NCBI GenBank assembly: GCA_903813345.2
Contig: CAIIXF020000007.1
Location: forward strand, 5,730 to 69,729
DNA from: Owenia fusiformis
Taxonomy: Eukaryota; Annelida; Polychaeta; Sabellida; Oweniidae
Length of the DNA stretch: 64,000 nt
Direction: 5' to 3'
Position numbers and translations under genes: made by a program. How positions within the stretch are numbered: position 1 is the first letter of the stretch; every line of letters starts with the position of its first letter. Below are positions 9,916-31,500 of this stretch, one piece after another. The notes below the pieces were generated by a model. That model was not told the origin of the DNA. It made no database searches and was given only the letters and a program-made list of their open reading frames with translations.

Positions 9916-12900
9916 TTAATCATTGGCAGTTATTCCTAATATGACCGCAATTGAGAGTAAAAATGATTGCTTACGTTGACATTCGACTGGGACTCCTGAC
10001 CATGTTTTGTCTGCTTGGCACGTCCTAACCAAGTCGCCGTCGTGGTTCAACTTTAGCTCATATCCTTCCGCACAAGAATATCGCAGTGTATCTTGGTATT
10101 CAAAGTTATCAGAATCCCTCACAACGTTTGGAAAATCATTTGGGTCTCCACAAACGACGCCTATAATGCACGTTACAACAATAACAATTTTTAGGAGTGT
10201 TTTTTTAAAAAAAAAGTGGATTTTCCGGGGTACATTTTACAAAAGGTAGTTCAGTCTCAGTCTTCACTACTAGGTTACTTCAATTCTCTCCATGTACCTA
10301 CTCTGAAAGCACATTTTAAATTGAACTTGTGAACAGATAATGAGCGTTTCACTTCTTCCAGAGTTAAAAATATACACAAACACGCACGATTTGGATGGGG
10401 GTGGAATTTCAACAGAGTAAGGACTTTAAGCTTTAAGTTTTCAAGGAATGAAACTCACAATGCTAAAAATAAATGTTCTCAAACAACCAACACGTTCAAA
10501 ATTCAAAATTACAGTTTTTGCGGAGCGTTGCAAGGTCCTCTGAGGCCCGTAGTAATTAATACTTACGGCCACACAGAGGGGCGTCTCCACTCCATATGCC
10601 ATCTGCCTGGCATTTTCTCCTTACATCACCAGACTTTACTTCATAGCCAGTATCACATGTATAACGTATAGACTCGGGAAAGTGATAATCAACACCAACT
10701 TTAGCGGCATGATCTACTGAAGAGGGCTCATCACACGGTATACCCTGGCATACAGCTTCTTCTCCACTCCATGTCTGACCAGCTTGACATGTACGGATGG
10801 CATTCCCCAACGTGACGATGTATCCATTGTCACAGGTGTACTCCGCAGTATCCTCAAACTCGAGACCGGAAAGATCAACTGTACCAAAATCAATGAACCC
10901 GGGGTCCTCGCACTTAACCCCTGCAATGTAACATTTACATATGTATAATTCAGTTTGAAATATTTACGTTTTGAATGTTAGAATAGTGCCTAAGTCTGCC
11001 TAAATATACAAAGTTAAAGCCAATCTAAAGCTAGTACTGAGTTTTGTATTCCAATGAACTGTTTATGAATGGAAAACCAGGAATGAGATGGAAATGGTTT
11101 AAAACAGTCATCATTTCTTACATTCAGATATATATACAATTTCTATATTTTCTTCGAAATTATCGGAATAATGACGTATGGATCCTAATAAACTCATCGA
11201 AAAAACACCGTTTCTTTTCTCACTTTCGCCATAAAAGTAACCTCTCTATTAGAGGTTAGGAAAGTTTTTAAGAAACTTCCAAAATAACAAATTAGAAATA
11301 CTTATAAACAAAATAATTTCAGATGTTCCCCAGGATGTTTCCTCTCGTGTGTACGTCAATAATTTTTTCAATTTCATATTTAATATCGTGCATTCCCAAG
11401 AAGATAACACGTTCTAATTTTTGTCCCTAGACAACCGTTTGTTTGTTTCTTCGTCAGTCATTTAGTCCATACGTCCGTTCGTTCGTCCATGCGCTCGTCC
11501 GTGTTTCCGTTTTGTTTATTTATCGTTTGTCTCGAGACTTACTTTCACAATTCGGATTCGTCCCAGTCCACGTATCGTCCGCCTGGCACGACCTTTCGAG
11601 GTCACCGCCTGCTAGTATAAATCCAGGGTTGCATTCATATGTGACAGTGTCCTCGAATCGATTGCCAGTTGAATCCTTGCTTGTGTATGGAACGTCATCA
11701 GCCTCTGGGCAGATAATTTCTACAAAACAAATAAATAATATATTACTAGTTAAGACCTTAGAGAAAAGATTTGGGATTTTAATGAATAGGCTAGGGTGAA
11801 TCTGCGATTTATTTTGCGATCGGGTATATAACGCACACTGTTTTAATTTAAAAATTTAGGGTTGCGCCTTTTAAATCTAGTATTTTTACTTTCAGAATTC
11901 CAAAATTCTCCACTAAAGTCTTTCTATAATAATGTGCAAATATAAATGTATGTAAAATGGAAGCGCGTGCATATCAACTACCCTGCGTGCAGAGTCTAGT
12001 TAAACTACAGACGAAGCTCTCTTTTAAGAAGTGAAGTCAAACGAATGCAAAGGGTACATATCAACATACTAAATCAGAAAATTAATTAATGTAAACATGG
12101 ACCTAATATCTCTTGAGAATTGAGGTCTATGATGTAAACATAGGCATTACTAGTATACAAAACAATTGATAAGCCGAGGGTGCTCCTTTGGAGTTCATAA
12201 TCTCAATGTGGGGTGGGGGGGGGGGGGTCGTAAGAAGCCGCATATATAGGTAATACTTGATTAGGGCCCCCATAGAGAAATATTTATGTTATTTTGACAA
12301 GGACAAGGAAAAAGTTCATAAGACTACATTACGATCATTGATCACTTACCCTCGCAAGATGGAACAGTTCCGGAAAACTCCTTGTTGGCCTGACATGTCC
12401 GTCTCATGTCTCCAGATGCTTGGCGAAATCCTGCATCACACGTGTACAACACTTCCTCGTTGTAGAACATGACTCTACCTGGATACCGTGTTCCATCCGC
12501 AACACCCTCAGCTGTACCACATGCAATGGCTGTCAAAGAAAACTTTCTCGAATCATGAACCACATTTGAGATATTTGTGGAGGGTTTCCAAAAATGACCA
12601 TGGTAAAAATGTAACGATTGTGGAACTACTAGTATATACCGGTAAAGCTATTAAACCCAACACCGCTGAATAAAATTATTTTCATCTCAGCATTCAGGGC
12701 TTAAAGAAAATATATCCTATCTTTTATATTTTTAAGAGAACATGCATATTTGAATTAAGCCTTACGATCACAGTCCCTCTTTTCCGGTACCCAAGCAAGG
12801 CTTTCTGCTTGGCATGTCCTTTCCAGGGTTGTGGATACAGGGTCCGTTTTGAACTCATGTCCAACGTTGCACGTGTATGTGACTGTATCCCCAACACTAA

Positions 12901-13801
12901 ACCCAGCACTTAACTCTCGTTCACCATTGTTAACATTACCAGGATCACCACAATCACCTGGAAATATGAAAAAGATTCCAGTCAATTATTAATGCACGGT
13001 CAGACGTTTGACATTCTAATGGGTCATGGGAGAAATAAAAAGAAATTAAAATAGCTTCAACAGATACATGCAGATGTATAATATGCTATCATAATTCACA
13101 TATTTTCATATCCACGAAAGTTGCGCGTCTTCGTGTAACTTTCAATAACTGGAACAAACCAAGTGGAACAGGAACAAAGGGATGAATACATTCCTATCAT
13201 CAATAATTTGATATCTTACAATGATAATCCCTCAATCAATTTGACAGTCACGAATAAAATCCCTTCGAAATGTTACCTATCCATTTCTTTGAGTATTCCA
13301 TATTTTATTTCACGTTTAAGAATTTGGAGGAACACTTGCTTACCTTTAGCTTTTGTATTGTTTATACTACTCACAAGTACTGCAATCTAAAACATAAAAA
13401 TGGCTGTTCTAAATCGTTTATCATGTTTTGATGGAGGGACCCAACATTATTAAAGAAGTTTTGCATAAGATATGTGGAAAATGCATCCGTAGTTCTGTAC
13501 GTATATGTTATAATTGTTTTCATAACGATTTCAAGAAACGGTTTTTACAACAACCATGAACCAGTTGAAATACAGCCCCTCTCTCCCAAAATTATTGATA
13601 ACCACCAGGATCTATTTCTTGCTATTTATGTTTGTGTGTAGATTTCTAGAAGTAGTTGTCTCTTTCATGACTGTGTATTGTAATAATAATACTTTTTTGG
13701 CATTTCTCTTTTAGAACTTGTTTAACAAATTTCGAAATAAGTGCACAAGTACATGAAATGTAAAATATTCCACTTACCAAGAGGAAAATTGTTGAATCCA
13801 T
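9916..13801 (-). CDS. Sushi (CCP/SCR) repeat protein with signal peptide, six sushi domains
   Basis: Minus-strand exons, in transcript order, are 13801-13778, 13386-13344, 12957-12766, 12529-12350, 11719-11543, 10920-10567 and 10160-9975. Every junction is GT/AG. After the 24-nt first exon (phase 0), all introns are phase 1, the usual arrangement for shuffled sushi modules. Residues 1-21 (MDSTIFLLIAVLVSSINN...) form a signal peptide split across two exons. Sushi domains lie at about 23-86, 87-146, 147-205, 206-323 (two domains in one exon) and 324-385; each has the four cysteines and the Y-x-C, C-Q-A and W-x-G core. Reading past the last donor-like GTAAGC gives 19 more residues with a short hydrophobic run (SFLLSIAVILGI) and a stop at 9916, for 404 residues in total. 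Otherwise the gene continues in undetected exons. Sushi chains occur in complement regulators, adhesion and surface proteins; no specific role can be assigned. Confidence 0.85.
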
Positions 13802-14999: not shown

Positions 15000-17900
15000 A
15001 TGTCTACTCCTATTAGCGATGAAAAAACAAAAAGTAAACGTCCTAAAGGTAAGATATTAACGTAATCTTTCACAGATTTATTTCATGACATAATTCGCCT
15101 ATGAGCGGACACATGTATTGACGATAATTTCTCGTCTAACTTTTGGACCACAGGAAATTGAATCAAGTTCAATCAAGTCCTTTTTGGTTACTTCCTGCGA
15201 AAGCTATTTGGATTTTGATATAATGGCTTTCCCACGGAGCATTTGGACAGCTGAATGATAGTGACCTTTGAAATCGAATTAAGTCGATCAGCGGCTTACT
15301 TTTGGTCTCTAACTGTGTCTTACATCAGTTTCAATCTCTAAGTATTAGAGCGCTGAAATGCTTCTTTTTCGATCAAGACTTGTTAATTGTTCATCGAGTG
15401 AATGTTTTTTAGACCTATTTCCAATATGGCGGTTTGCTAGGAGCGAGATACGCAACGAACGGAATGAATTTTGAGAATTAGTCATGTTCGGACAACCTCT
15501 GGAGATTTACGAAAATGTCCGAGCAGAAAACACCATATTGGAATTTGGCAGTTAAAACATTCACTCGACTAGAGTCCATTTCACTGCTTCATTTCGTCAG
15601 TAGAACGGCAAAAATAAGAAATTGGGAGACCATTGTGCAATAATATATGGAAAAGTATATTCATAATGTACATGAATGACATTTGTATATTTCAGATTTT
15701 TTAGTTTTTTGTGCAATAAGCCTGGGCCGTCTTGTAATTTGAAGAATTTCAGCCATGTTAATCTTATTGAAAATAACATGGCAGAGAAACATCCAAATAT
15801 AAGAGGCCACACACTTTATAAGCCAAACTAGAAGCAATCCAAGATATACAAATGTCATTCATGTACATTATGAATATACTTTTCCATACAGAGGTGGCGT
15901 TAACGCAATTTTTTACGTTTTTTACTCACATTTTTGCAACTCTGACGCAAATATTCATTGTCTACCGAGTCTTTCTGACGCACGTTTGTTTCACATGCAA
16001 AATCCCCGCTTGGTACTTGGTTAAATTGATCCCTATACGTGAAAATACGTGATTGATCAAATTTATAATTTTGCTAATTCCGGAAATCTAACATTTCGTT
16101 CAGCGCAATCGAGCCTCCTTCCTACCGATCATTTTCTTATTTCGGTATTTCATATAATTTTTAAAGCCCTGTGATTCAGATTCAATGATAAACTTGAAAA
16201 CATTGATCGATCCCTCGATTTGTTTATCTCGTGTGCTAGGGGGCGTATCAAAAATGCAATAAAACGAACATAACATTGAACATGGACTTCAAATAGAAAT
16301 CAAATAGAAATCAAATAGAAGTCCATGCATTGAACAATAATTTATTAATTTCATACTCCCTTCTAAGGATTTTAGTGATCGTATATTTATCTAAATTACC
16401 GCATAAAATCTTTCCTTGAATGTTCACACGCTAGATTTACGAACCTTTAGTTTCCTTCGCAAGTTCGCAAAATTCCTTCGCTAAGTTAGCAAGTTTCCTT
16501 GAGCCGTCCCCTTCATCAGCATGCGCAGATGTAATGCGCAGTAGGTTTATCAATGGTGCTCACAGTGACCGATCTATCGTAAGTTTTCACCAAGTATTTT
16601 CAATTAACTCCCTCAAGTTAAGATCTTCAATTCACTAGATCTGAAGCTGATCCTATGAAGATAGATAATGGGCACATGAAAATCCAGTCGATCGCACATT
16701 AAGGGGGGTAATGATGATAAATTAGGTATGAAAACAAATCTACTTTCGGTTTCATTTTATAATTACAAGGTTCTACCGTATTCAATTTAAATGATGCCCA
16801 GTATTGTGGTCGGACTTATATTGCCGTTTTAGACTTTGGAATGATTGCAAAAATGTTGAATTTCAACATGAAACGCTTTGACCCCAATTTGTGTAACTCC
16901 ACACAGGGAGAAACTCCTCTCCCACTCCATTCACACCCATGACTCGCTGGACCAGATAATCAGATGATTAATAGTGACATTTTTCTTGCAATTGCCTAAT
17001 TAATTAATAGTTAGTTGTTAATGTGCTATAAGAGTACAATAAAAGGTATGCACAAAATCAAAAAATAGATTTTGTATGTGGTTTCTACATTTTGTATGCA
17101 TTTTTACTCAAGAAAAACACTTTTATAGCTTTGACTCAACTTTTTTTCTTGTGACTCACTTTTTTGAAACTACCTGAGTCATGATGACTCACAAAAATAT
17201 ATGCCTACCGCCACCGCTGCCATATATTATTGCACAATGGTCTCCCAATTTCTTATTTTTGCCGTTCTACTGACGAAATGAACCAGTGAAATTTTTTCTA
17301 ACAATTACAAGTCTTGATCGAAAAGGAAGTAATTCAGCGCTCCAATACTTGCACGGAAGGATGATAATGATGTATAACATAGTTAGAGAACAAAAGTAGG
17401 CCGCTGATCGACTTAATTCGATTTCAAAGGTCACTATTAGTCAGCTGTCCACTTCCCCGTTTGAGAGCCATAAGTTTCAAAATCTAACATGGCTCTCTTT
17501 TTGAGCATCTTATTTACAATTTCCTTGACCCGTTTGACCTTAAGGTGACTGTTAACTTAATCGATTTTCAGAAAAAATTGAAAATTTCACAATCTTGAAA
17601 TTTTCAAACTCTTCCTGAGAAGTCGTTTTTATTATTTCACATATGCTTGTGCACTGTAATCATTACAAAGACATCAAAGAACAACAAAAAAATTTAGTTT
17701 GAGAAAAAAAGTGCCGTTTAAAGAATTTGAGAAGATTGTTTTCTAGGAGTAGCCCGTGAAAAACCACTGATTCAAAATATCTGAACATTTCAGAAAATAT
17801 ACTTCAAGCATATATCAAAAACGAAGGAGCAATGGAAATTTGAAAAATTACCCGATAAAAAAATTAGCATCAAAATAAGGAAAAAAGTACACTTCTCAAA

Positions 17901-20900
17901 TTGTTTTTTTCTATTTTTTTTAAATTTATATGAGAGATTTCAAAATTCTAAAGCTCCTTCCATTTTGGGCTATATTAAAGGGATGTTTCAGAGAAATTAG
18001 AAAAAAAAATGTTCAGGGACCTTTGCCGTGCTACTCTTTGTGTCAATTTTTCTGTCACATTTTCAGAGGACTCAAATTCCCATTCCAAAATGGTTAATGT
18101 TTCTATTTGCATTACCACAGTGAGCCTGGTTATATAAATGATAAGTGGAACTAAAAAATTGAGAGAAAATCCAACCAAAAGACAGTTAATTTTGATGGTC
18201 AGATTATACTCAAATGCCATGTGCTTCCTGGTTTCAGCCATCTTGGATTTTTTGATTAAGTTATAAGTTACCTTAAAAAAAAAAGACATAATATTCACTA
18301 CATGTCTACTTACCAGTATGTAATAGATCCTTTGTAGTGGTTGGAGGTAACTTACTCACTTCGAGAGCCATGTTAGATTTTGAAATTATGGCTCTTCATC
18401 GGAGCTATGGACAGCTGAATAATAGTGACCTTTAAAACACTGATAATGCGATCAGCGCCTTACTTTGTTCTATAACTGTGTCCTACATCAGTATCATCCA
18501 TCCTTGCAAGAATTGGAGTACTTCCTTTTCGATCAAGACTTGTAATTGTATTTGTGTACATTTTTCAATTTAGATTGTCTCGACTTTTTGGTGATTTTGA
18601 AGACATGTCTGCACTTCATAGTTCAAAATAAACTTCTGTAGTTATTTGACACCACCTTTTAATTTGCCCCACTGACCTTTTATTGTTTCTCAAAACATAT
18701 TCTCTCAAAATCAGGAAATTAGGGTGATGAGCAGGGAAATTTTGTAGGGAATTTCAGTCATACTATTGAAAGCCCAAATTTGCTAACTAGATAATGGCAA
18801 CTCCGCAGAGTAGCAAATCCCAACGAACAAAATATCAATTACCGAATTCCAATCAATTATACTCATTACTTGAGTATAAATTGAAAAATTTAGATTTTAG
18901 AATTGCGAATTCCTGCAAAGCAGCCATTTTGAATTTTCTGAGGTACAAATCTGAAGAATCATACCATAATTGTGATCTACTCCAAAATTCCTTCAATTTG
19001 AGTATAATATAGCCATACTTTGAAGGGATCGAAAAATTATTGCGAAATTGTACATTAGACGGCCATTTTGAATTTAACGAGGCTCGAATCAGAAAAAAGA
19101 TACAATATTTGCAATCTACTCTTAATTGCCTTTCATTTGAGTGTAATAAAGCTATACTTCAGAAAGATCTAAAAATTAGCGAAAATTACTGTTTTCCTGA
19201 CCCCCCATACACGGCCCCTGGGGGTCAGGATGAAAAACACAGAATATATGTGAAAAAGATAGATGTTGCGAATATACTACCAAAATTTCAAACAATAATA
19301 TTAATTACTTTGGTTTAGAATGAAAAATTTATGATTTTTGCGAAAAAGTCCTGTCATTTTTAAAGCGGCGGCCATCTTGAAAAAACTATTCACCAATTTA
19401 CATCTTTCCACTAAATATGAAGAAAATCTGTCAACTCTTATTTGAGTTATCTTCCGGACGGACGGACGGACGGACTGACTGACGGACGGACGGAGGGCTT
19501 CACTATATCCCTACCGAACTTCGTTCGTTGGGATAATTACTGGTCAAAAGAGTTAAAGATTAACGTTTATAATCATCACTTTAAACATGCCTTTTGAAGT
19601 TTCAACAGAGGTCTTTTAAATGCAATTTCACCATGTTATCCCAGTATCCATGGTACTTAAATAAAATAAAAAATAAAAATACAAAATATACTGTATTACA
19701 GTTACTGGAATGCTGGAATACATACATGTACTTTAAATTTATTTCAGATACAAAGTTCAAACAACAGAAGTTACCTGCTTGGCAGCCCATACTCACTGCA
19801 GGAACAGTCCTACCAGCATTCTTCGCAATAGGAATAGCTTTCATACCTCTAGGGGTCGCCCTTCTCATCACAGCAAATAATGTAAGTCACTATAGCTTTC
19901 ATACCTCTAGGAGTAGCCCTTCTCATCACAGCAAATAATGTAAGTCACGAAAGCTTTTATACCTCTAGGGGTACCCCTTCTCATCAGCAAATAATGTAAG
20001 TCACTATAGCTTTCATACCTCTAGGGGTAGCCCTTCTCATCACAGCAAATAATGTAAGTCACTATAGCTTTCATACTTCTAGGGGTAGCCCTTCTCATCA
20101 CAGCAAATAATGTAAGTCACTATAGCTTTCATACTTCTAGGGGTAGCCCTTCTCAACACAGCAAATAATGTAAGTCACTATAGCTTTCATACTTCTAAGG
20201 GTAGCCCTTCTCATTCACAGCAAATAATGTAAGTCACTATAGCTTTCATACTTCTAGGGGTAGCCCTTCTCATCACAGCAAATAATGTAAGTCACTATAG
20301 CTTTCATACTTCTAGGGGTAGCCCTTCTCATCACAGCAAATAATGTAAGTCACTATAGCTTTCATACTTCTAGGGGTAGCCCTTCTCAACACAGCAAATA
20401 ATGTAAGTCACTATAGCTTTCATACTTCTAGGGGTAGCCCTTCTCAACACAGCAAATAATGTAAGTCACTATAGCTTTCATACTTCTAGGGGTAGCCCTT
20501 CTCATCACAGCAAATAATGTAAGTCACTATAGCTTTCATACCTCTAGGGGTAGCCCTTCTCATCACAGCAAATAATATAAGTCACGAAAGCTTTCATACC
20601 TCTAGGGGTAGCCCTTCTCATCACAGCAAATAATGTAAGTCACGAAAGCTTTACCTAAAACTAAAGTGAAAATACTTATAGCATCTTATTTATCCCCACT
20701 TCTATTCTGTTCTCGAAAATGTGTCATCTTCTTTCCAGAATCACATGTCATAACTTAAACTTTAACACATATTAAGTCACTTTGAAACAATGAATTAGTC
20801 ACAGTAGTTTACATATTTACTGTTGCCATGTCCCAGTTTGTCAACTTATTCCCCAATTATTATAAAATTGAACAGAAACTATATTACTTGTAACAACTTG

Positions 20901-23900
20901 AATCTTATCAGTTATTACACGTTTCAGCATGTGATACGGGAAATATTCCACGAAAGTAAAAAAGCTGCGCTTTCGTGGTGATACTTTTTTATCACATACT
21001 ATGTAGAAATCTAGTGTTTTGATTAGAGCTTTCTTTGACGTTCTAACTTCTAGTTCCCCAAATGACAAATTCATCATTTCTAAGAAATAATAACATAGCC
21101 TATATGTGACGTCATTTTGAATTAGGAAAGAATAGAATGAAGTTGTATGACGTCATTGCATTACCATAGACAATGTGTGGTACGTGTGCTCGTATCATAT
21201 GGAATTTATGTGATACGGGAAATATGTCATAGAAAGCAACCAATCAAATCACTAGATTTCTACATAGTGTGATAATGATCAATACTGCATGAAGACTCTA
21301 ATTATTTGAAATGTTCACAATATGCGATTTTAAAATGAGTAAATGTGAAACATTAATTAATAGTTTAGTATACTGTACATGTGCTGCATATATGTAAACT
21401 TAAGTCTGTGAGTTATGTTTCATAATATTCAATTTTTAAGGCTAGTATTCTGTTCCTTCTTGGAAAAGTAAACTATGAGTCAGCTTTAAAATTATGTCAA
21501 ACAATTTGCATGCTTTTTCTATGTCTGTTCTGATGATGTTAAAATGTAGAATTGGTGACTATGTTTATGTTTTAGGTCCAGGAGAAGATAGTTGAATATA
21601 CAACAGACAACTGTGTATCATTAAGCAACCCAACAGAGACATGTGCAAAGTTCCTTGAAAACAAGGACAATGTTGGCCAAATGTGCAATTGCAGGGTCAC
21701 CTTTAACCTCACAGATGATTTCCAGGTGAGCCAATTGAATTGTTAGGAACACTTTTAAAAGAATGTATTGTACATTTTGTAATTGGGTTCTTGTTATTTC
21801 ATCCATCTCATTTAAATTAATCAACAATTATGGGTTCTTTTATTTGAGTCATCGGGGAAATATTTTCTGAATGGACACATATACATGAAGGTCGTTCAAT
21901 AAATACTTCAATACAAATGATCTTAATTTGTTATTTGGATGGGAATCAAGATGAAATTTCCATAAATTAAAGACAATATGTATGTCTTTATTTTATACAG
22001 ACCAAATATTATGAATTACAATTTGAAAACTGTATTTTGATCTGTGTTAAATGCATTATTTATTGACTTTCCCAAAACAAAAGAAGCAGCTTGGCACTAG
22101 TTGCTAACAACAATACACATTTATTGTACTTACTCGATTATATTTTCAAGTGTATACAGAATATTGATTTCTTGCAAAAATGATCTCCTATTACTGTATT
22201 ATTTATTACAGTCTATATTACAGATATTAAGTGTGTCTTGATAAAATAATGTATCATATTATATGGAGCATGTTCTTGTAGGGAAATGTCTTCATGTACT
22301 ATGGACTTTCAAACTTCTACCAGAATCATAGGAGGTATGTGAAGTCTCGCGATGACTATCAGCTGCTTGGCAAAGGTGGAGCTGCATCAGAATGTGAACC
22401 ATATAGGAACTACCAGTACAATGACTCCACCCCTGAAATACCATATGCTCCATGTGGAGCCATTGCTAACAGCCTCTTTAATGGTGAATAGCTATTAATC
22501 TGTAAATCTTTCTGTAGTTATTTTCCTAATGATTGAAATGAGAGGGGAATTTAAGAGTACACTCTGTGGATCAATAGAAATGTAACGTGTATAATATCTG
22601 ATATACTGTTTATTTTAGTGACATAAATAGCAGCCATAGAAAGATGGTCTGAAGTCATTGTAAATTGGGTGCAGTATATTCATTTCTATTGCTCCTTGTA
22701 GTATTTTTCAGGAAAGGCACACTTTCTTTTTACTGTTGAAACTAGATCTCGCTACTCCATGTTTGCAAAGGTTTAAATGATGAGTCTGCAAACAAAATTT
22801 AGTGAATTCTGCAAGAGAAAATGCCAATATTTTGTGAATTCTAGGATTTCTATGAAAAATGTGCAAATAATTTTTGAAAATACAGGGATAGACTTTCATG
22901 AAGTCAGAGGTATTTTATATGAAAAAAGATTTTTTACAAAAACATTGAGACAGTTTTTCATGGATGTACTGCCATGGAGAAAAACAATGCAAAAACAAGT
23001 GAAGCTCTTGAAACTGTAACTTACAAAGGGAAGGCTGATTATTCATCTTCCATTTTGTCACTCACTATTGTGGAAATAAATCAAAGTTCAAGAAATCATA
23101 ACTCTGCGGGCCAAAGCTGATTCTGTGCATGCGCATGCTAACTGAACACAGAAATCTGATAATACTATTTATTTTATCTGACATTAATAGCAGGCATAGA
23201 AAGATGGTCTGAAATCATTGTAAATTGGTTGCAGTATTATATTCATTTCTAGTTTAATTGTAAATATATTGCCCCTTGTAGTATTTTTCATGAAAGGCAC
23301 ACTGTAAAACAGTAAGATTTTCCAATTATATGTATTTTTTCTTTAGATTCGTTCACTCTGACATATAATGCTGCCAGTGGTGACATCCCTGTAGGACTCA
23401 ACAGGAGGGGAATAGCTTGGTCTACAGATAGAGATGTCAAGTTCAGGAATCCACCAGGGGCATCCCTTGATGAAGGTAGAAACACTTTTAAAGCAACCAT
23501 CAGCAATAAATCGAATGCACTCACTAAACCCATGAATATTTACAGGGTGGGCCAAAAAAAACGCCACTTTTTTTTCAAAATGCTATAACTTTTTTAATTT
23601 TTGGTACAAAATCATAATTTGCATACCAAATGAAACTTGAAGTTGTTATCTAGCCATGGATCATGAATTGTGCACTTTTACTTGAATAAAATATGTCACC
23701 AGCGCCTCACTTAAACATGTGGTGTGCCATGAGAAATATTAAAGCATAATTTGCAAAATGTTCCTGAACTGATATGGCCTGATGACCGCCAAGCTAATAG
23801 CCCTGATGCAAACCCCAGTGAGTATAGGGTATGGGAAGGTCCCCAGGAGATTGTATGAAGGCATCCAATTTAAAAAATTGCTCAACTAAAGCTGGCAATT

Positions 23901-24980
23901 AAGACATGTTGAAAATTTTCTAGCTAACATTCCATTGATACTGCTATATCAGCAAGGCGACTAAAACTAAAATCTATCATCAAATAGGGTGGCGGACCAA
24001 TACTCCTATTCGCGTTAAGAGTTCAGGTGGTAATTTACATAAATATCTCCCATGATGCATCGCTTTGGAAGGGACAAATTTTCAATGGCCCTCCGAACGA
24101 GTCGATTATTCTGAACGTTTCTCAGCTTCTGATCTTCCATCAGCCCTCAAGCATAGTTATATAATCCTATCTATTCAATAATCAGAAAGATAATCGGAGA
24201 TTCAAAGTAACATTATTTATATTTTTTCTATCTTCGATGGCGTCTGAGCAATTTCTGGGATTTCAGTGACGTCACTGGAATTGGACGGCATTTTTAACTA
24301 CAGATTTCTTCGGATTTGGGGATAATAGTTCAAAAAGCTTTGTCATATATCTTAATTGCATACATACCTATCGTTTGTGCAAATGAAACTCTACATAAAT
24401 GTTTAATAGAGTTGCAGTGCGGCATTGGAAATAGCACCCCTGTGTAATCCAATGGGAAAGAACCCGGATGTCGACGAAGTTGTACCATACATGAGAGCTC
24501 TTCAAACGGGAAATAGCTAAACTGAACGAAATTAAACGTTATCGCGTATTGGTATATTGAACTCCTCTTTTAGATCAAATATTATCCAAGTTGAAGGACT
24601 TGTTACATTTAATTATTACTAAGAACCCCTGGCTCTATATAACTGCAAAGTTTGGGGTATGTAGGTTGGAAAATAAAAAGGTTATAGTGTCTTGAAAAAA
24701 AAGTGGCGTTTTTTTGGGCCCACCCTGTATATAAACATAACACTTAATGTTTCAGCCTTTGCAAATACCCGGCAGCCAATGAACTGGCAACATAATATCA
24801 CACAGCTAGACCCTGATGACCCAGATAACAATGGCTACCAGAATGAAGACCTGATTGTATGGATGAGGACAGCTGCCCTGCCAACATTCCGCAAGCTTTA
24901 CAGGAAGATTAACCACAACTCAGATCCTGTCTTTAACGGAAAACTCCCTAAGGGACAATATACATTAGATATCAACTATG
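15000..24980 (+). CDS. TMEM30A: TMEM30A/CDC50 flippase beta subunit (3' end lost in gap)
   Basis: Visible coding exons are 15000-15048, 19748-19881, 21576-21725, 22282-22483, 23347-23475 and 24756-24980. Phases 1, 0, 0, 1 and 1 join without error to give 296 residues. The protein is the CDC50 subunit that P4-ATPase lipid flippases need for ER exit and activity. Diagnostic features are [20 protein letters not shown] before the first membrane segment (about 33-58), [39 protein letters not shown], and [16 protein letters not shown]. The ectodomain has paired cysteines and N-glycosylation sites (NLT, NDS, NIT). By comparison with vertebrate TMEM30A (about 360 residues), about 60 C-terminal residues with the second membrane helix are missing and should lie in the N run at 25001-25500. 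Intron 1 carries nested transposons, intron 2 a junction-derived minisatellite and intron 5 a mariner copy. TMEM30B is less likely because that vertebrate paralog is intronless. Confidence 0.95.
15195..17505. mobile_element. Long fold-back element in TMEM30A intron 1, interrupted by a second element
   Basis: Arm A (about 15195-15691) is the inverted match of arm B (about 15848-15888 continued at 17225-17505). The inner part, around CCATTGTGCAATAATATATG, is nearly identical; the outer part, around GTGACCTTTGAAATCGAATT, is more diverged. The spacer is ~156 bp. Arm B is split by the insertion at 15889-17219. A third, direct-orientation copy of the outer arm lies at 18360-18555. There is no coding capacity. 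Confidence 0.8.
15889..17219. mobile_element. Non-autonomous DNA transposon with 11-bp TIR and 5-bp target duplication
   Basis: The ends are CAGAGGTGGCG and CGCCACCGCTG (10 of 11 positions match as inverted repeats), flanked by CCATA at 15884-15888 and 17220-17224. Removing the element and one CCATA restores exactly the sequence present in the opposite fold-back arm (around 15640-15680). CAG-first ends are typical of hAT elements; 5-bp duplications are described for some hAT groups, so this assignment is tentative. The interior includes a small hairpin near 16281-16327 with AAATAGAAATC tandem copies. No transposase frame is seen. Confidence 0.75.
17506..18359. other. TMEM30A intron 1, no feature recognised
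   Basis: AT-rich intronic sequence between copies of the fold-back arm. A 107-codon minus-strand open frame at 17975-18298 has no recognisable domain and is probably chance. Confidence 0.4.
18360..18555 (+). repeat. Third copy of the fold-back outer arm
   Basis: Matches 15200-15400 in direct orientation and 17300-17500 inverted (shared GGACAGCTGAATAATAGTGACC and TTTTCGATCAAGACTTGT). It agrees better with the inverted arm at GAGAGCCATGTTAGATTTTG. Confidence 0.75.
18775..19534 (-). repeat. Dispersed ~750-bp repeat, copy A
   Basis: Inverted homolog of 26612-27320. On the minus strand it starts TTATCCCAACGAACGAAGTT, then a GTCC-rich microsatellite, then AAGATGGCCGCCGCTTTAAA, and ends near GATTTGCTACTCTGCGGAG. 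The plus-strand frames at 18794-19012 and 19040-19318 lie wholly inside it and are not host genes. Confidence 0.85.
19838..20655 (+). repeat. 58-bp minisatellite duplicating the TMEM30A exon 2/intron 2 junction
   Basis: The last ~44 bases of exon 2 (coding for [15 protein letters not shown]) and the first ~14 of intron 2 are repeated 13 further times. Donor-like GTAAGTCAC recurs at 19940, 19996, 20054, 20112, 20170, 20229, 20287, 20345, 20403, 20461, 20519 and 20635, with one mutated copy (ATAAGTCAC) at 20577. Spacing is 58 with single 56- and 59-bp units. The true donor is at 19882. Copies are nearly identical, so expansion is recent. Confidence 0.95.
20930..21273. repeat. Fold-back repeat in TMEM30A intron 2
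   Basis: ACTATGTAGAAATCTAGTG (about 20998) and its complement CACTAGATTTCTACATAGT (about 21250) pair as an inverted repeat. TGTGATACGGGAAATAT occurs directly at about 20930 and 21211. Confidence 0.7.
22590..23310 (+). repeat. Direct duplication in TMEM30A intron 4
   Basis: About 22590-22725 and 23160-23305 are direct copies (shared GCATAGAAAGATGGTCTGAA and CCTTGTAGTATTTTTC, the first allowing one mismatch). The second copy has a ~25-bp insertion. The sequence between them has no recognised feature. Confidence 0.75.
23543..24727. mobile_element. Decayed mariner-type transposon in TMEM30A intron 5
   Basis: The ~36-bp terminal inverted repeats start CAGGGTGGGCC(A/C)AAAAAAA and continue CGCCACTTTTTTTTCAA. 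They are flanked by TA at 23541-23542 and 24728-24729, the Tc1/mariner target duplication. Around 23775-23850 the plus strand still reads a broken transposase C-terminal fragment resembling [15 protein letters not shown], the conserved SPDLNPxxYxVW block. About 23990-24600 is unlike transposase and may be a later insertion. No intact frame is left. Confidence 0.85.
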
Positions 24981-25000: not shown

Positions 25001-25500
25001 NNNNNNNNNNNNNNNNNNNNNNNNNNNNNNNNNNNNNNNNNNNNNNNNNNNNNNNNNNNNNNNNNNNNNNNNNNNNNNNNNNNNNNNNNNNNNNNNNNNN
25101 NNNNNNNNNNNNNNNNNNNNNNNNNNNNNNNNNNNNNNNNNNNNNNNNNNNNNNNNNNNNNNNNNNNNNNNNNNNNNNNNNNNNNNNNNNNNNNNNNNNN
25201 NNNNNNNNNNNNNNNNNNNNNNNNNNNNNNNNNNNNNNNNNNNNNNNNNNNNNNNNNNNNNNNNNNNNNNNNNNNNNNNNNNNNNNNNNNNNNNNNNNNN
25301 NNNNNNNNNNNNNNNNNNNNNNNNNNNNNNNNNNNNNNNNNNNNNNNNNNNNNNNNNNNNNNNNNNNNNNNNNNNNNNNNNNNNNNNNNNNNNNNNNNNN
25401 NNNNNNNNNNNNNNNNNNNNNNNNNNNNNNNNNNNNNNNNNNNNNNNNNNNNNNNNNNNNNNNNNNNNNNNNNNNNNNNNNNNNNNNNNNNNNNNNNNNN
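25001..25500. other. Assembly gap (500 N)
   Basis: A run of N. It must hide the last coding exon or exons of TMEM30A and the first exons and promoter of the EF-hand/kelch gene. The round length suggests the true size may differ. Protein frames drawn through it are artefacts. Confidence 0.98.
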
Positions 25501-25555
25501 ATGTTCTTTAATATGTAGTTGTATGAATCAATATATCCAATGTGTCTGTTTGCAG

Positions 25556-28500
25556 CCTTCAGCTATTGAACTACCCCAGTGATGTTAGTAAGACTGTCTT
25601 AGACATCTTTGATGAAGATGATGATGGAATTATAAACTGGAAGCAATGTTTAGGTAAGTTCATTGAAATAACTGAACATATTTTACCATATTTGTACACA
25701 TTGAATAGAGACTGGCAGGGGCAGGCCCCATAGTTTGAATTACTGACACCGAATAGTCTAATGCTATGGACAAAACCCAACAGTGTCCCCTTTGACAAGA
25801 TGTATCATAATCAATAGTTAAACTGAAGGAAGTTAATAAAAACTTCAACCAAACAAAGATTCGAACATGACTGTATTCACGCCTTCTATAAACTGTAAAC
25901 AAAGTCACCATTTCACCCAGGGTATATTCGCGTAGAATACCCCTGGTAATACGTGAAATGTGTGAAGTCATAACAGCAGGTCATAGTAATGGCGGACCAT
26001 TATGAATATTTCAAACATTTTGGTGAGTTTTCATGTTCAAATCGTAATATAGACCTCAGATCAGGGGTGATATCTCCCTTCCTGTCGTTCGGGATACAGA
26101 AAACATTTGTGCCTAGCCCTGTGGGTTGTATTCAAAATTATTACCCCTGCTCTTCGGTCTATATTTCTTAAATAGAAATCATCTACACAATTGCCAAATA
26201 ATCAATGCCATTTGGAGAAAATTGAGGAGTCAGTGGCAATGAAACACAACTATTTATGAAAAGATGTATTTTTTCCAGATTCTAAAATGTAACATTAAAC
26301 AACACTAAATTATTTAAACCATGACTACACCAAGGTTTAGTTTAAAATGAATTAATTTGATTACTTTGATTTACTCAACAAGACAAAAGTAGTTATGAAC
26401 CTTGAAATCAAATTAGTATTTTTTATGTTATTCTGCTCTCTATCATAGTGATATGTCATAGTGACAGATTTATTAATAGAGATTGTGAAGAGATTTATAA
26501 GTCTCAATTAGTCATTGTCAAGACAACATGATTAAATGAATTATTTCATAAGGGTCTCGCAATAGCCTTCCAGTACATTGAAATAAAGCTGATATTATCT
26601 ACACTCTTTTAATTATCCCAACGAACAAAGTTCAGTAGGGATACAGTGAAGCCATCCGTCTGTCCGTCAGTCTGTCTGTCCATCCATCCGTCCGTCTGTC
26701 CAGAAGATAACTTGAATACTAGTTGACAGATTTTCTTCATATTTGGTTGAAAGATGTATATTGGTGAACAGTTTTACGTAAAAAAAAATTTCAAGATGGC
26801 TGCCGGTTTAAAAATGACGGGAATTTTTTGCAAATTTTTATTATTATTATTTGGAATTTTGGTAGTATATTTACAAGATCTATCTTTTTCACATATACTC
26901 TGTGTTTTTCACCCTTACCCCCAGGTGCCGTGAATGGGGGTTCAAAAAACAGGAATTTGCACTAATTTAAAGTATAGCTTTATTATACTCAAATGAAAGG
27001 CAATTTAGAGTAGATTGCAAATATTGTATCGTTTTTCTGATTCGGGCCTCGTAAAATTCAATTCAATTATGGTATTGTTTTTCTGATTTGTGCCTCAGAA
27101 AATTCAAAATGGCTGCCTAGAGCTGGAATTCACCATTACTTAGAGTTATCTTGAAAGTATGGTAAAATGACACTACAATGATGTCAAATATTTATTGAAG
27201 GAAAGAGTAGATCGTAAATATTACATTGTGACTGTACAGATTCACGATTTATTTAGTGTTCTTTGGGATTTGCTAATCCGTGGATTTGCCATTTTCTAGT
27301 TTGAAATAAAAGTTCATTTCCAACCAAAATATGATCTGCTTAAGGACAGGGTGCATGTTGGGAAATTTTCTGCATTCCTCAATTGAGTCACATGTTATTT
27401 TTCAAACAAGAATAACTCCTTCCCCACATTGTCTACATCTTCCAAGTTTGCACAAAGAGTGCACTTATGTGCCTAGAAAAGCCTTGTGAGAAGGTTTGCT
27501 TTGTAAAATGTAAAAAAAATGAGAAAATTCAGTGAAAAAAAATTCTGAAAATTTTCTGATTTTTTTAACTGAATTTTCTTGTTTTTTATACACTTTATCA
27601 AAACATTCTTCTCACAAGTCTTTTTTAGGCACATAAGTGCACTCTTTGTGCAAAACTGGAAGATATAGACAATGTAGGGAAGGCGTGATTCTTGTTTGAA
27701 AAATAACATGTGACTCAATTGAGGAATGCAGAAAATTTCCCATCATGCACCCTGACCTTAATCACTACACATATTCTATCTTTAAGTATTTCTTTTAAAT
27801 ACAAACCATGAATGTTACATTTGAGATCGGTAAGATTTCATCAGCTTCTAAGTTGTTAATCATTTGCACTAGTATAATTACAGGCCCGTTTTTAAGGGGG
27901 ATGGTTCGAGTGAACCAAAAATTCTTTCAAAATCATGCAGTTTTTTTATTTACCATTCTGAGTACTTTTCAAGTGATTTTGGGCCAAAGTTGTTAAATAT
28001 GAATCCACTTGGAACTTTTTGAAAAGTGAATCCCCCCTTGGCAGGAGATGATTATGGGCCAAATGTTTTATTAATCTATATAGACCCAGGGTGCATTTAG
28101 AGCCATCATTAATTTGAAATGTCTGTTTTATTTTCAGGTGGACTGACTTTATTTGCTAGTGGGAAGAATTCTGAAAGGATTGATTTACTTTTTCAACTGG
28201 TAAGTAGGTTACTTTATTTATACATCTTTTTGATATATATTTAGCAGTTATGTCCCTATCATTGAATATATGCCTAAGGTCTGTCACCAATATAGCCCGA
28301 GCTTGCGAGGGTTATATTACGACAGACCGAAGGCATATATTCAATGATACGGACATAACTGTTGTATTACATACTTTTACATCATGGCTACGTTATATCA
28401 ATGACGCCACGTGTCTGTGTGCGAGTGAAATTAGGAAGAAATGAAACATGAGAATTTGATTGCAATAGGCAATGAGGAGTCAGATGGAATAGATTAGGGT

Positions 28501-31500
28501 GTATTTGTAATACGCTATGAGGAGTTAGTTATAATAGACCATGAATAGTTGGTTGGGATAGACTATTAGGATTTGGTTGCAATAAACTAATAGGATTTGG
28601 TTGCAGTAGGCAATGAGGAGTCAGATGGAATAGATTAGGGTGTATTTGTAATACACTATGAGGAGTTAGTTATAATAGACCATGAATAGTTGGTTGGGAT
28701 AGACTATTAGGATTTGGTTGCAATAAACTAATAGGATTTGGTTGCAGTAGGCAATGAGGAGTCAGATGGAATAGATTAGGGTGTATTTGTAATACACTAT
28801 GAGGAGTTAGTTATAATAGACCATGAATAGTTGGTTGGGATAGACTATTAGGATTTGGTTGCAATAAACTAATAGGATTTGGTTGCAGTAGGCAATGAGG
28901 AGTCAGATGGAATAGATTAGGGTGTATTTGTAATACACTATGAGGAGTTAGTTATAATAGACCATGAATAGTTGGTTGGGATAGACTATTAGGATTTGGT
29001 TGCAAAAGACTAAGAGGAGTTGGTTGTAATAGACTTGGGTTGGGTTATAATAGTCCATGGGGACTTGGTTGTAATAGACTAGGACCTGGTTATAGTAGAC
29101 CTTGAGGAGTTGGTGGTAATAGACTTGGGTTGGGTTATAATAGTCCATGGGGACTTGGTTGTAATAGACTTGGGTTGGGTTATAATAGTCCATGGGGACT
29201 TGGTTGTAATAGACTTGGGTTGGGTTATAATAGTCCATGGGGACTTGGTTGTAATAGACTAGGACCTGGTTATAGTAGACCTTGAGGAGTTGGTTGTAAT
29301 AGACTTTGGTTGGGTTATAATAGTCCATGGGGACTTGGTTGTAATAGATTAGGACCTGGTTATAGTAGACCTTGAGGAGTTGGTGGTAATAAATAGACTT
29401 GGGTTGGGTTATAATAGTCCATGGGGACTTGGTTGTAATAGACTAGGACCTGGTTATAATAGTCCATGGGGACTTGGTTGTAATAGACTTGGGTTGGGTT
29501 ATAATAGTCTATGGGGACTTGGTTGTAATAGACTTGGGTTGGGTTATAATAGTCCATGGGGACTTGGTTGTAATAGACTTGGGTTGGGTTATAATAGTCC
29601 ATGGGGACTTGGTTGTAATAGACTAGGACCTGGTTATAGTAGACCTTGAGGAGTTGGTTGTAATAGACTTTGGTTGGGTTATAATAGTCCATGGGGACTT
29701 GGTTGTAATAGACTAGGACCTGGTTATAGTAGACCTTGATGAGTTGGTGGTAATAGACTTGGGTTGGGTTATAATAGTCCATGGGGACTTGGTTGTAATA
29801 GACTAGGACCTGGTTATAGTAGACCTTGAGGAGTTGGTTGTAATAGACTTTGGTTGGGTTATAATAGTCCATGGGGACTTGGTTGTAATAGACTAGGACC
29901 TGGTTATAGTAGACCTTGATGAGTTGGTGGTAATAGACTTTGGTTGGGTTATAATAGTCCATGGGGACTTGGTTGTAATAGACTAGGACCTGGTTATAGT
30001 AGACCTTGATGAGTTGGTGGTAATAGACTTGGGTTGGGTTATAATAGTCCATGGGGACTTGGTTGTAATAGACTAGGACCTGGTTATAGTAGACCTTGAG
30101 GAGTTGGTTGTAATAGACTTTGGTTGGGTTATAATAGTCCATGGGGACTTGGTTGTAATAGACTAGGACCTGGTTATAGTAGACCTTGATGAGTTGGTTG
30201 TAATAGACTTTGGTTGGGTTATAATAGTCCATGGGGACTTGGTTGTAATAGACTAGGACCTGGTTATAGTAGACCTTGAGGAGTTGGTGGTAATAGACTT
30301 GGGTTGGGTTATAATAGTCCATGGGGACTTGGTTGTAGTAGACTAGGACCTGGTTATAGTAGACCTTGAGGAGTTGGTGGTAATAGACTGTGATGATGTA
30401 GTTTGTAAGGGGAGGCATCAAAAGTTCAATGTCGGATTGGAAACTAAATAAATCTAGTTTTGACTCAGACCCTACCCCCCCCCCCCCCTCCCCCCAAAAA
30501 CTAAATACCATGAAAGTTGATCGCTGACTTCCGTTTTGAGAATTTGAAAAATTATTGCTAAACATGATCTAGTTTTTGTTAATTCCTATCTTCATTTGCG
30601 GCTTTTAACAACTGTTGATAGAATAGAATCCTTTGGAATGATCTTGACGAAGAAAGCATCAGGTAAAATCTTTATTTTTAAACCATTCCAAGGCATTCTG
30701 AGTCAAAATTGCCAAAAATTTGAAATGTTGAAATTTGTCGGATAGCAAACTGAAATGGGTTCGAACCCCCTCCCCCTAACTAGATTTATTTAGTTTTCTA
30801 TCCGACATTGAACTGTTGATGCCTCCCCTAAAAGATAAGAACTTGGTTATATTAGACTAGGATGAGTTTGTTTTATAGACTAGGAAAAGTTAGTTGTAAT
30901 AGACTATGAAAAGTTAGTTATAATAGACTAGGAAAATTTGATAACAATAGATTAGATGCAAGTCGAAACAATTTTGATTTCGGTCATTAAAAATCCAAAA
31001 ATCAGTCAAAGTGATATCATATTTGAAATATACATGTAAATTACATTTAGAAATGTGGTTTTAAAAAAAGTGTTTACCAATTTCACCCTTGGTATATGCA
31101 GCTAACGAAAATTGACCGGTACGGGTCAAAAGCTGGACCGGTACGGGTTAACGGTTTTATTTGAATTTAAAACAGCCATAACTTGCTCAATATTGACTTC
31201 CTCGTGTCTAATTTGAAATATATGATGCCTCCCGATGCTTTTAAGTACCCCAATTTTTTACAGATTTTTAAACGGACCAAAACTCTCTAAATGCGCATTT
31301 ATGCTCTTTTCTCTCGAGAACGACTGTCTCATTTTCACGATAACTTTTATTTAGTACTTCTTACATATAGGATCTATTTTTCCCCATCAAGGTATGATGT
31401 AAATGACATGCTATTTACATCTTGTGAGTTTCAATGACGCACGTTTGATTTTATAAAAAATGCCAAACTTTGTGACAAAGAATTTCATCCTGCTTGCAGC

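Follow-up and report, generated by a model that had tools for sequence, protein, structure and literature searches.

The TMEM30A gene of Owenia fusiformis carries a real minisatellite at the 3' end of its second predicted coding exon, where the exon tail and its splice donor are repeated thirteen further times within the following intron. By analogy with minigenes bearing identical donors, the native donor is probably the one used (we put this at about three chances in four), the array being spliced out as a tolerated, fairly recent minisatellite of an exon-edge class. Judging from similar loci in the same genome, this class looks recurrent, with TMEM30A as one of its members.

Structure and origin of the TMEM30A array

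Unless another contig or locus is named, positions refer to the window, i.e. the whole stretch of 64,000 nucleotides that was analysed. The gene model comprises the following features:

15000..24980, plus strand: TMEM30A/CDC50A gene (exon ends and phases, protein matches)
15000-15048, 19748-19881, 21576-21725, 22282-22483, 23347-23475 and 24756-24980, plus strand: predicted coding exons (GT/AG ends, joining phases)
19748..19881, plus strand: exon 2 (134 nt), ending in AAT at the native donor 19882 (exon ends and phases)
19882..21575, plus strand: intron 2 (1,694 nt, of which 941 nt separate the last donor and the acceptor; computed lengths)

The joined predicted protein (349 residues) belongs to the CDC50/TMEM30 family (Pfam CDC50 PF03381, E=3.1e-92) and its best PDB match is CDC50A 6k7g (E=1.7e-114). 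Exon 1 is a prediction, one of two candidates fitting phase and donor, and the length of intron 1 depends on this choice; 15000-15048 was taken because its translation (KSKRPK/D) continues the CDC50A alignment. The product of exon 2 ends in a hydrophobic stretch which aligns with CDC50A and which we take to be its first membrane helix. A CDC50 search of the genome returned three exon-sized matches; they appear to be exons of a single gene, apparently the sole CDC50 gene, so that TMEM30A presumably still works. The gene is cut after its sixth predicted exon by a 500-N gap (25001-25500), and its next exon lies on the minus strand near the end of contig C163. This contig, of exactly 25,000 bp, looks like a fragment excised in scaffolding, so that annotation may miss the 3' end of TMEM30A.

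Other features were recorded around the gene. Upstream, open frames resembling complement-control (sushi) modules occur on the minus strand (9916-12985), and an EF-hand-like exon follows the gap on the plus strand (about 25555-25654), both being putative likenesses. Another large minisatellite complex, composed of 141-bp and 45/90-bp units, occupies 28454-30389 and contains a repeat-made open frame of 402 codons on the minus strand.

The array itself is organized as follows:

19834..20652, plus strand: 58-bp minisatellite, native exon tail and donor followed by 13 further intronic copies (Tandem Repeats Finder, unit listing)
19882..19887, plus strand: native donor GTAAGT (unit listing, exon phases)
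19940..20640, plus strand: span of the 13 extra donors (pattern search, unit listing)
19940, 19996, 20054, 20112, 20170, 20229, 20287, 20345, 20403, 20461, 20519 and 20635, plus strand: +1 sites of the intact extra donors (GTAAGT)
20577, plus strand: +1 site of the mutated extra donor (ATAAGT)

Tandem Repeats Finder delimited 14.1 copies of period 58 with 96% matches (19834-20652), a tandem series of nearly identical units, each some tens of bases long, as in other minisatellites. The array starts at a coding-exon 3' end and its units carry the donor consensus, two features of a donor-repeating exon-edge minisatellite. A preliminary description had proposed a minisatellite built from the exon/intron boundary of TMEM30A, with 13 further copies, 12 perfect donors and one changed to ATAAGT; it was right on the gene, the boundary and all these counts. 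Its 58-bp unit stood as well, whereas the exon share, given as about 44 coding bases, had to be corrected: a unit is composed of 48 exon and 10 intron bases. Among the 13 extra copies, 11 measure 58 bp, one 56 bp and one 59 bp. Intact AAT/GTAAGT was observed in 12 of them (13 of the 14 units, native included), and all 12 intact extra donors are identical to the native one over 12 bases. AATGTAAGTCAC is perfect at 13 places in the array, the 14th copy reading AATATAAGTCAC (20574); allowing up to two mismatches, it displayed 23 matches in the window versus 9.6 +/- 2.9 expected, a number reached in 0 of 100 shuffles. In the 498-Mb, 525-contig assembly, a DNA search that skips common words detected neither a further copy of the unit nor a haplotig, and a 22-base pattern with at most two mismatches gave 14 matches, all at the TMEM30A array.

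It is very improbable that the array, or the number of its copies, stems from an assembly artefact. The 500-N gap does lie 4.3 kb downstream, but the units differ by their own substitutions and by their 56- and 59-bp lengths, long reads would span the whole array (about 820 bp), and the same architecture was encountered at other loci.

A tandem duplication across the boundary between exon 2 and intron 2 would have founded the array, probably at a microhomology of 6 bp:

19837..19842, plus strand: AGCTTT in the exon, putative first arm of the proposed founder microhomology (from sequence)
20647-20652, plus strand: AGCTTT just after the last donor unit, putative second arm (from sequence)

These two arms, one unit apart in the presumed ancestor, are likely the founder microhomology. 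GAAAGCTTT begins units 3 and 14 as well as the intron just past the array, and the exon displays AATAGCTTT. Unequal exchange or slippage would then have amplified the units of exon tail and donor within the intron. The least similar units are mostly located at the edges (3, 1 and 14), and unit 7, in mid-array, diverges too; this distribution fits, without proving, core amplification by unequal exchange or slippage. A single base (GTC versus GTA), synonymous in the exon frame, sets exon 2 apart from all thirteen repeats. The recent expansion earlier deduced from near-identity is likely, since units 5, 8, 9 and 12 match the consensus. Intron gain by tandem duplication (Rogers type) was also considered and rejected, the units, read by eye, containing no AGGT.

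Donor choice and coding outcome

The coding consequence of using a later donor is dictated by a single stop codon:

19936..19938, plus strand: TAA ending the exon 2 read-through frame, ahead of the second donor at 19940 (frame reading)

Since this TAA precedes all extra donors, every later donor gives the same truncated protein, including the five that would lengthen the exon by a multiple of three (114, 288, 405, 579 and 753 nt). The earlier statements that the unit is not a multiple of three, that the frame stops within the first extra unit and that any donor except the first truncates the protein were thus confirmed, even for the frame-keeping lengths. Productive isoforms from later donors are ruled out by the stop before donor 2. 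A truncated product with several exon junctions downstream is expected to undergo nonsense-mediated decay.

Donor strength cannot decide among these sites, as they are identical. Exon context may do so: according to PMC9225289, five minigenes with an exon-defined internal exon, 365-nt flanking introns and a pair of identical donors spliced only at the upstream one. The same paper reports that natural near-equal donor pairs favour the upstream site in 60% of cases, with an upstream preference in long introns and a downstream one in short introns, and that the downstream donor is preferred in about 60% of all events when strength is unmatched. The minigene precedent concerns two donors, not fourteen, and transfected cells, not O. 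fusiformis. From these minigenes and from the setting of exon 2 (134 nt, between predicted introns of 4,699 nt upstream and 1,694 nt downstream), we infer that the native donor is used. The choice among 13 near-identical sites had been presented as a puzzle, a view not supported by the minigenes, where identical donors resolve upstream (PMC9225289). In the proposed mechanism, the short exon 2 between its long introns would be defined by pairing between its acceptor and whichever identical donor lies closest, namely the native one. The extra donors would be removed as intron, and stray use would lead to one truncated frame, probably subject to nonsense-mediated decay. The array would accordingly be tolerated rather than functional, apparently as one of a genome-wide set of exon-edge minisatellites whose persistence has the same cause.

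A second possibility is that later donors are used appreciably, the array lowering TMEM30A output via decay and its copy number tuning expression between individuals. Identity of the 12 intact extra donors with the native one over 12 bases would allow it, as would the size of the exons made by donors 2 and 3 (only 192 and 248 nt) and the use of two downstream repeat donors in IFI6 (passages of PMC4526556). Yet it appears unlikely given the exclusive upstream use in the five minigenes (PMC9225289), the apparent uniqueness of the CDC50 gene and donors that display no conservation signal. This last test is a weak one of low power: 1 of 9 columns is variable in the donor 9-mer versus 11 of 50 elsewhere (p=0.67), and one donor is already lost.

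The same figures, at the same low power, weigh against selective maintenance of the array, for example if it offered successive U1 binding sites that protect or stimulate the transcript. Intactness of 12 of the 13 extra donors and the similar arrays at other exon ends are in its favour, but recent homogenisation predicts intact donors anyway, and we hold this explanation to be very doubtful. Still less credible are micro-exons made from the acceptor-like CTTCTAG and CATCACAG of each unit. Both strings or close variants were seen by eye in many units, but CTTCTCATCACAG also occurs inside native exon 2, where its use would break the gene, and the resulting exons, about 8 or 29 nt long, would be of a size seldom recognised.

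Donor arrays elsewhere in the genome

The same genome was searched for three donors spaced as in the array, with the words AGGTAAGT and AATGTAAGT. Triples of AGGTAAGT occurred in 238 rows at gaps of 12-42 and 670 rows at gaps of 43-73, corresponding to 16 and 13 arrays among the matches listed (the first ~100 per search); all 29 were fetched, with 3 to 33 exact copies per locus. For AATGTAAGT, 296 rows comprised at least 23 arrays among the matches listed, and all 23 were fetched. With frames read by eye, 23 of the 29 and 11 of the 23 arrays, respectively, start at the point where an open coding stretch reaches its 3' end. Besides TMEM30A, 34 of 52 inspected donor-bearing arrays are thus placed at a coding-exon 3' end, these exons being incomplete calls made by eye. 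Upstream of the first donor, the open frame had a median length of 44 codons in the 29 arrays, versus 28 at random upstream points (p=0.0009), and reached at least 30 codons in 22 of 29 arrays versus 48% of random points at the same loci.

Pfam searches (E<=0.02) covered 30 of the 34 exon ends (20 from the AGGTAAGT set, 10 from the AATGTAAGT set), leaving out L015, L030, L031 and L087. Matches were obtained for seven of the first ten (Muted, NIF, HSP70, Neur_chan_LBD, MRPL52, UDPG_MGDP_dh_N and I-set), two of the second ten (Ras and Kringle) and five of the ten AATGTAAGT exon ends (NLPC_P60, WD40, PI-PLC-X, RCC1 and zf-C4). Pfam's own cut-off was passed by 10 of these 14, HSP70, Ras, Kringle and NLPC_P60 falling short. 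Four exon ends were also searched against PDB: one newly matched neuronal calcium sensor 1 (E=2e-10), two supported the readings of Hsp110 (3e-7) and Rab27A (1.5e-8), and L026, whose exon we presume to be DIP2-like, had no match. Protein-family evidence is therefore available for 15 of the 34 exon ends (weak for Kringle and NLPC_P60), and the remaining 19 rest on reading frames (15 without Pfam match, four outside the Pfam test).

Thirty-three exon-edge arrays, TMEM30A included, were measured, leaving out L028 (17-bp unit) and L031 (a near copy of L030). Nine of the 33 have a unit length divisible by three (11 by chance). In 18 of 22 arrays, and in 6 or 7 of the other 11 (L066 depends on the choice of second copy), a stop ends the frame ahead of the second donor; such frame evidence is weak, the count being partly automatic as GTAAGT reads as a stop (TAA) in phase 2. 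On these figures, nothing points to selection on later donors for a coding role, in agreement with their being intronic. Units mostly consist of exon tail, to which a short piece of the intron start is added (median 16 bases). The exon share exceeds half of the unit in 24 of 33 arrays, with a mean relative share of 0.71 (P=4e-5 versus uniform breakpoints); this estimate replaced an automatic one and was chosen after the automatic result. The mean falls to 0.46 when 18 unclassified arrays are set to zero, and the automatic estimate for the second set was 0.28 (11 arrays, combined P=0.04), with the register wrong in several loci. The exon-share bias is suggestive only and may reflect how exon-edge arrays are recognised.

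One locus stands apart in its coding aspect. At L007 (G000:C1:441200-444500), a 54-bp exon-edge array displays a read-through frame open over 996 nt, and use of later donors, or of none, could give an in-frame repeated protein. Its exon had no Pfam match and, in our assumption, reads like a tetraspanin membrane helix.

Single sites of AGGTAAGT numbered 19,109 (array copies included) versus 33,902 for the reversed word TGAATGGA. Triples amounted to 238 rows versus 352 at gaps of 12-42 and 670 versus 370 at gaps of 43-73, and those of AATGTAAGT to 296 versus 216 for its control, all row counts being dominated by a few large arrays. At gaps of 43-73, 13 donor and 11 control arrays were present among the matches listed; scaled by sites and by the genome stretch of these matches, donor arrays are roughly twofold over control. 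That donors seed arrays more than other words do is not established. Arrays appear to be common in this genome generally, and the case for the class lies in their presence at genuine exon ends, where no avoidance is visible, rather than in a proven excess.

Among the 11 control-word loci, L043 (G000:C2:29630800-29633800), with 42 copies of a 24-bp unit, adjoins by eye a frame that we take to be serpin-like, so that arrays touching exons would not be limited to splice-site words. Acceptor arrays of TTTGCAGG were recorded at 18 loci (L047-L064), several of them at exon starts by eye, with copies upstream in the intron. Seven were submitted to Pfam and gave 2OG-FeII_Oxy (E=0.0017) and TOP_N (E=0.049), both below the Pfam cut-off, and their exon shares were left unused owing to register errors (L047, L056). 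Tentatively, they may mirror the donor arrays.

Relation to known systems and significance

The minisatellite of human IFI6 (6-16) has a 12-nt unit, and its later donors lead to alternative isoforms; in contrast, the TMEM30A unit is 58 bp long, frame-breaking and always truncating. Passages of PMC4526556, citing Turri et al. 1995, describe the use of two downstream repeat donors in IFI6, where, as in TMEM30A, a tandem repeat at a coding-exon end supplies a splice donor with each unit. Donor multiplication by a minisatellite in a single gene is, by this analogy, a known kind of event with a human precedent. In-frame use of later donors, as in an isoform generator of the IFI6 type, is precluded in TMEM30A by the stop at 19936, and its array therefore shares the IFI6 architecture but not its isoform-making role.

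Other systems are partly similar. In the potato RdRp gene, as described in passages of PMC4974935, a tandem duplication also spans an exon/intron boundary, and one duplication gave rise to a new spliced intron; TMEM30A differs by many copies at the donor, units without AGGT and no sign of a new intron. The 24-bp AGGT duplications of fission yeast (same passages, citing Zhu and Niu) likewise consist of several short exonic copies with splice-site sequence. There, however, exonic AGGT copies are spanned by an intron, whereas in TMEM30A exon tail and donor are repeated in an existing intron. Earthworm metallothionein genes share minisatellite-sized intron repeats and contain exon duplications absent from the transcript; unlike in TMEM30A, no repeated donors are described for them in the passages covered (PMC12783039). 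A genome-wide class of exon-edge donor arrays was not found in searches of the openly licensed literature.

It is rather improbable that a mutational or selective process of the genome repeatedly builds exon-edge arrays whose donor number tunes unproductive splicing in dozens of genes. If true, a splicing rheostat variable in copy number would act across the genome, with TMEM30A as one of its reporters.

The value of the TMEM30A array lies in its being one of apparently many exon-edge donor arrays in a single genome. For annotators they are a warning, as such arrays could spawn false isoforms. They could also reveal whether minisatellite copy number changes gene output. Many genes, each with several near-identical donors after one acceptor, would form a natural series on the spliceosome's choice among equal 5' splice sites, a long-standing question, and the rule of cross-exon proximity would be testable in living tissue across numerous genes that differ in exon length and array size.
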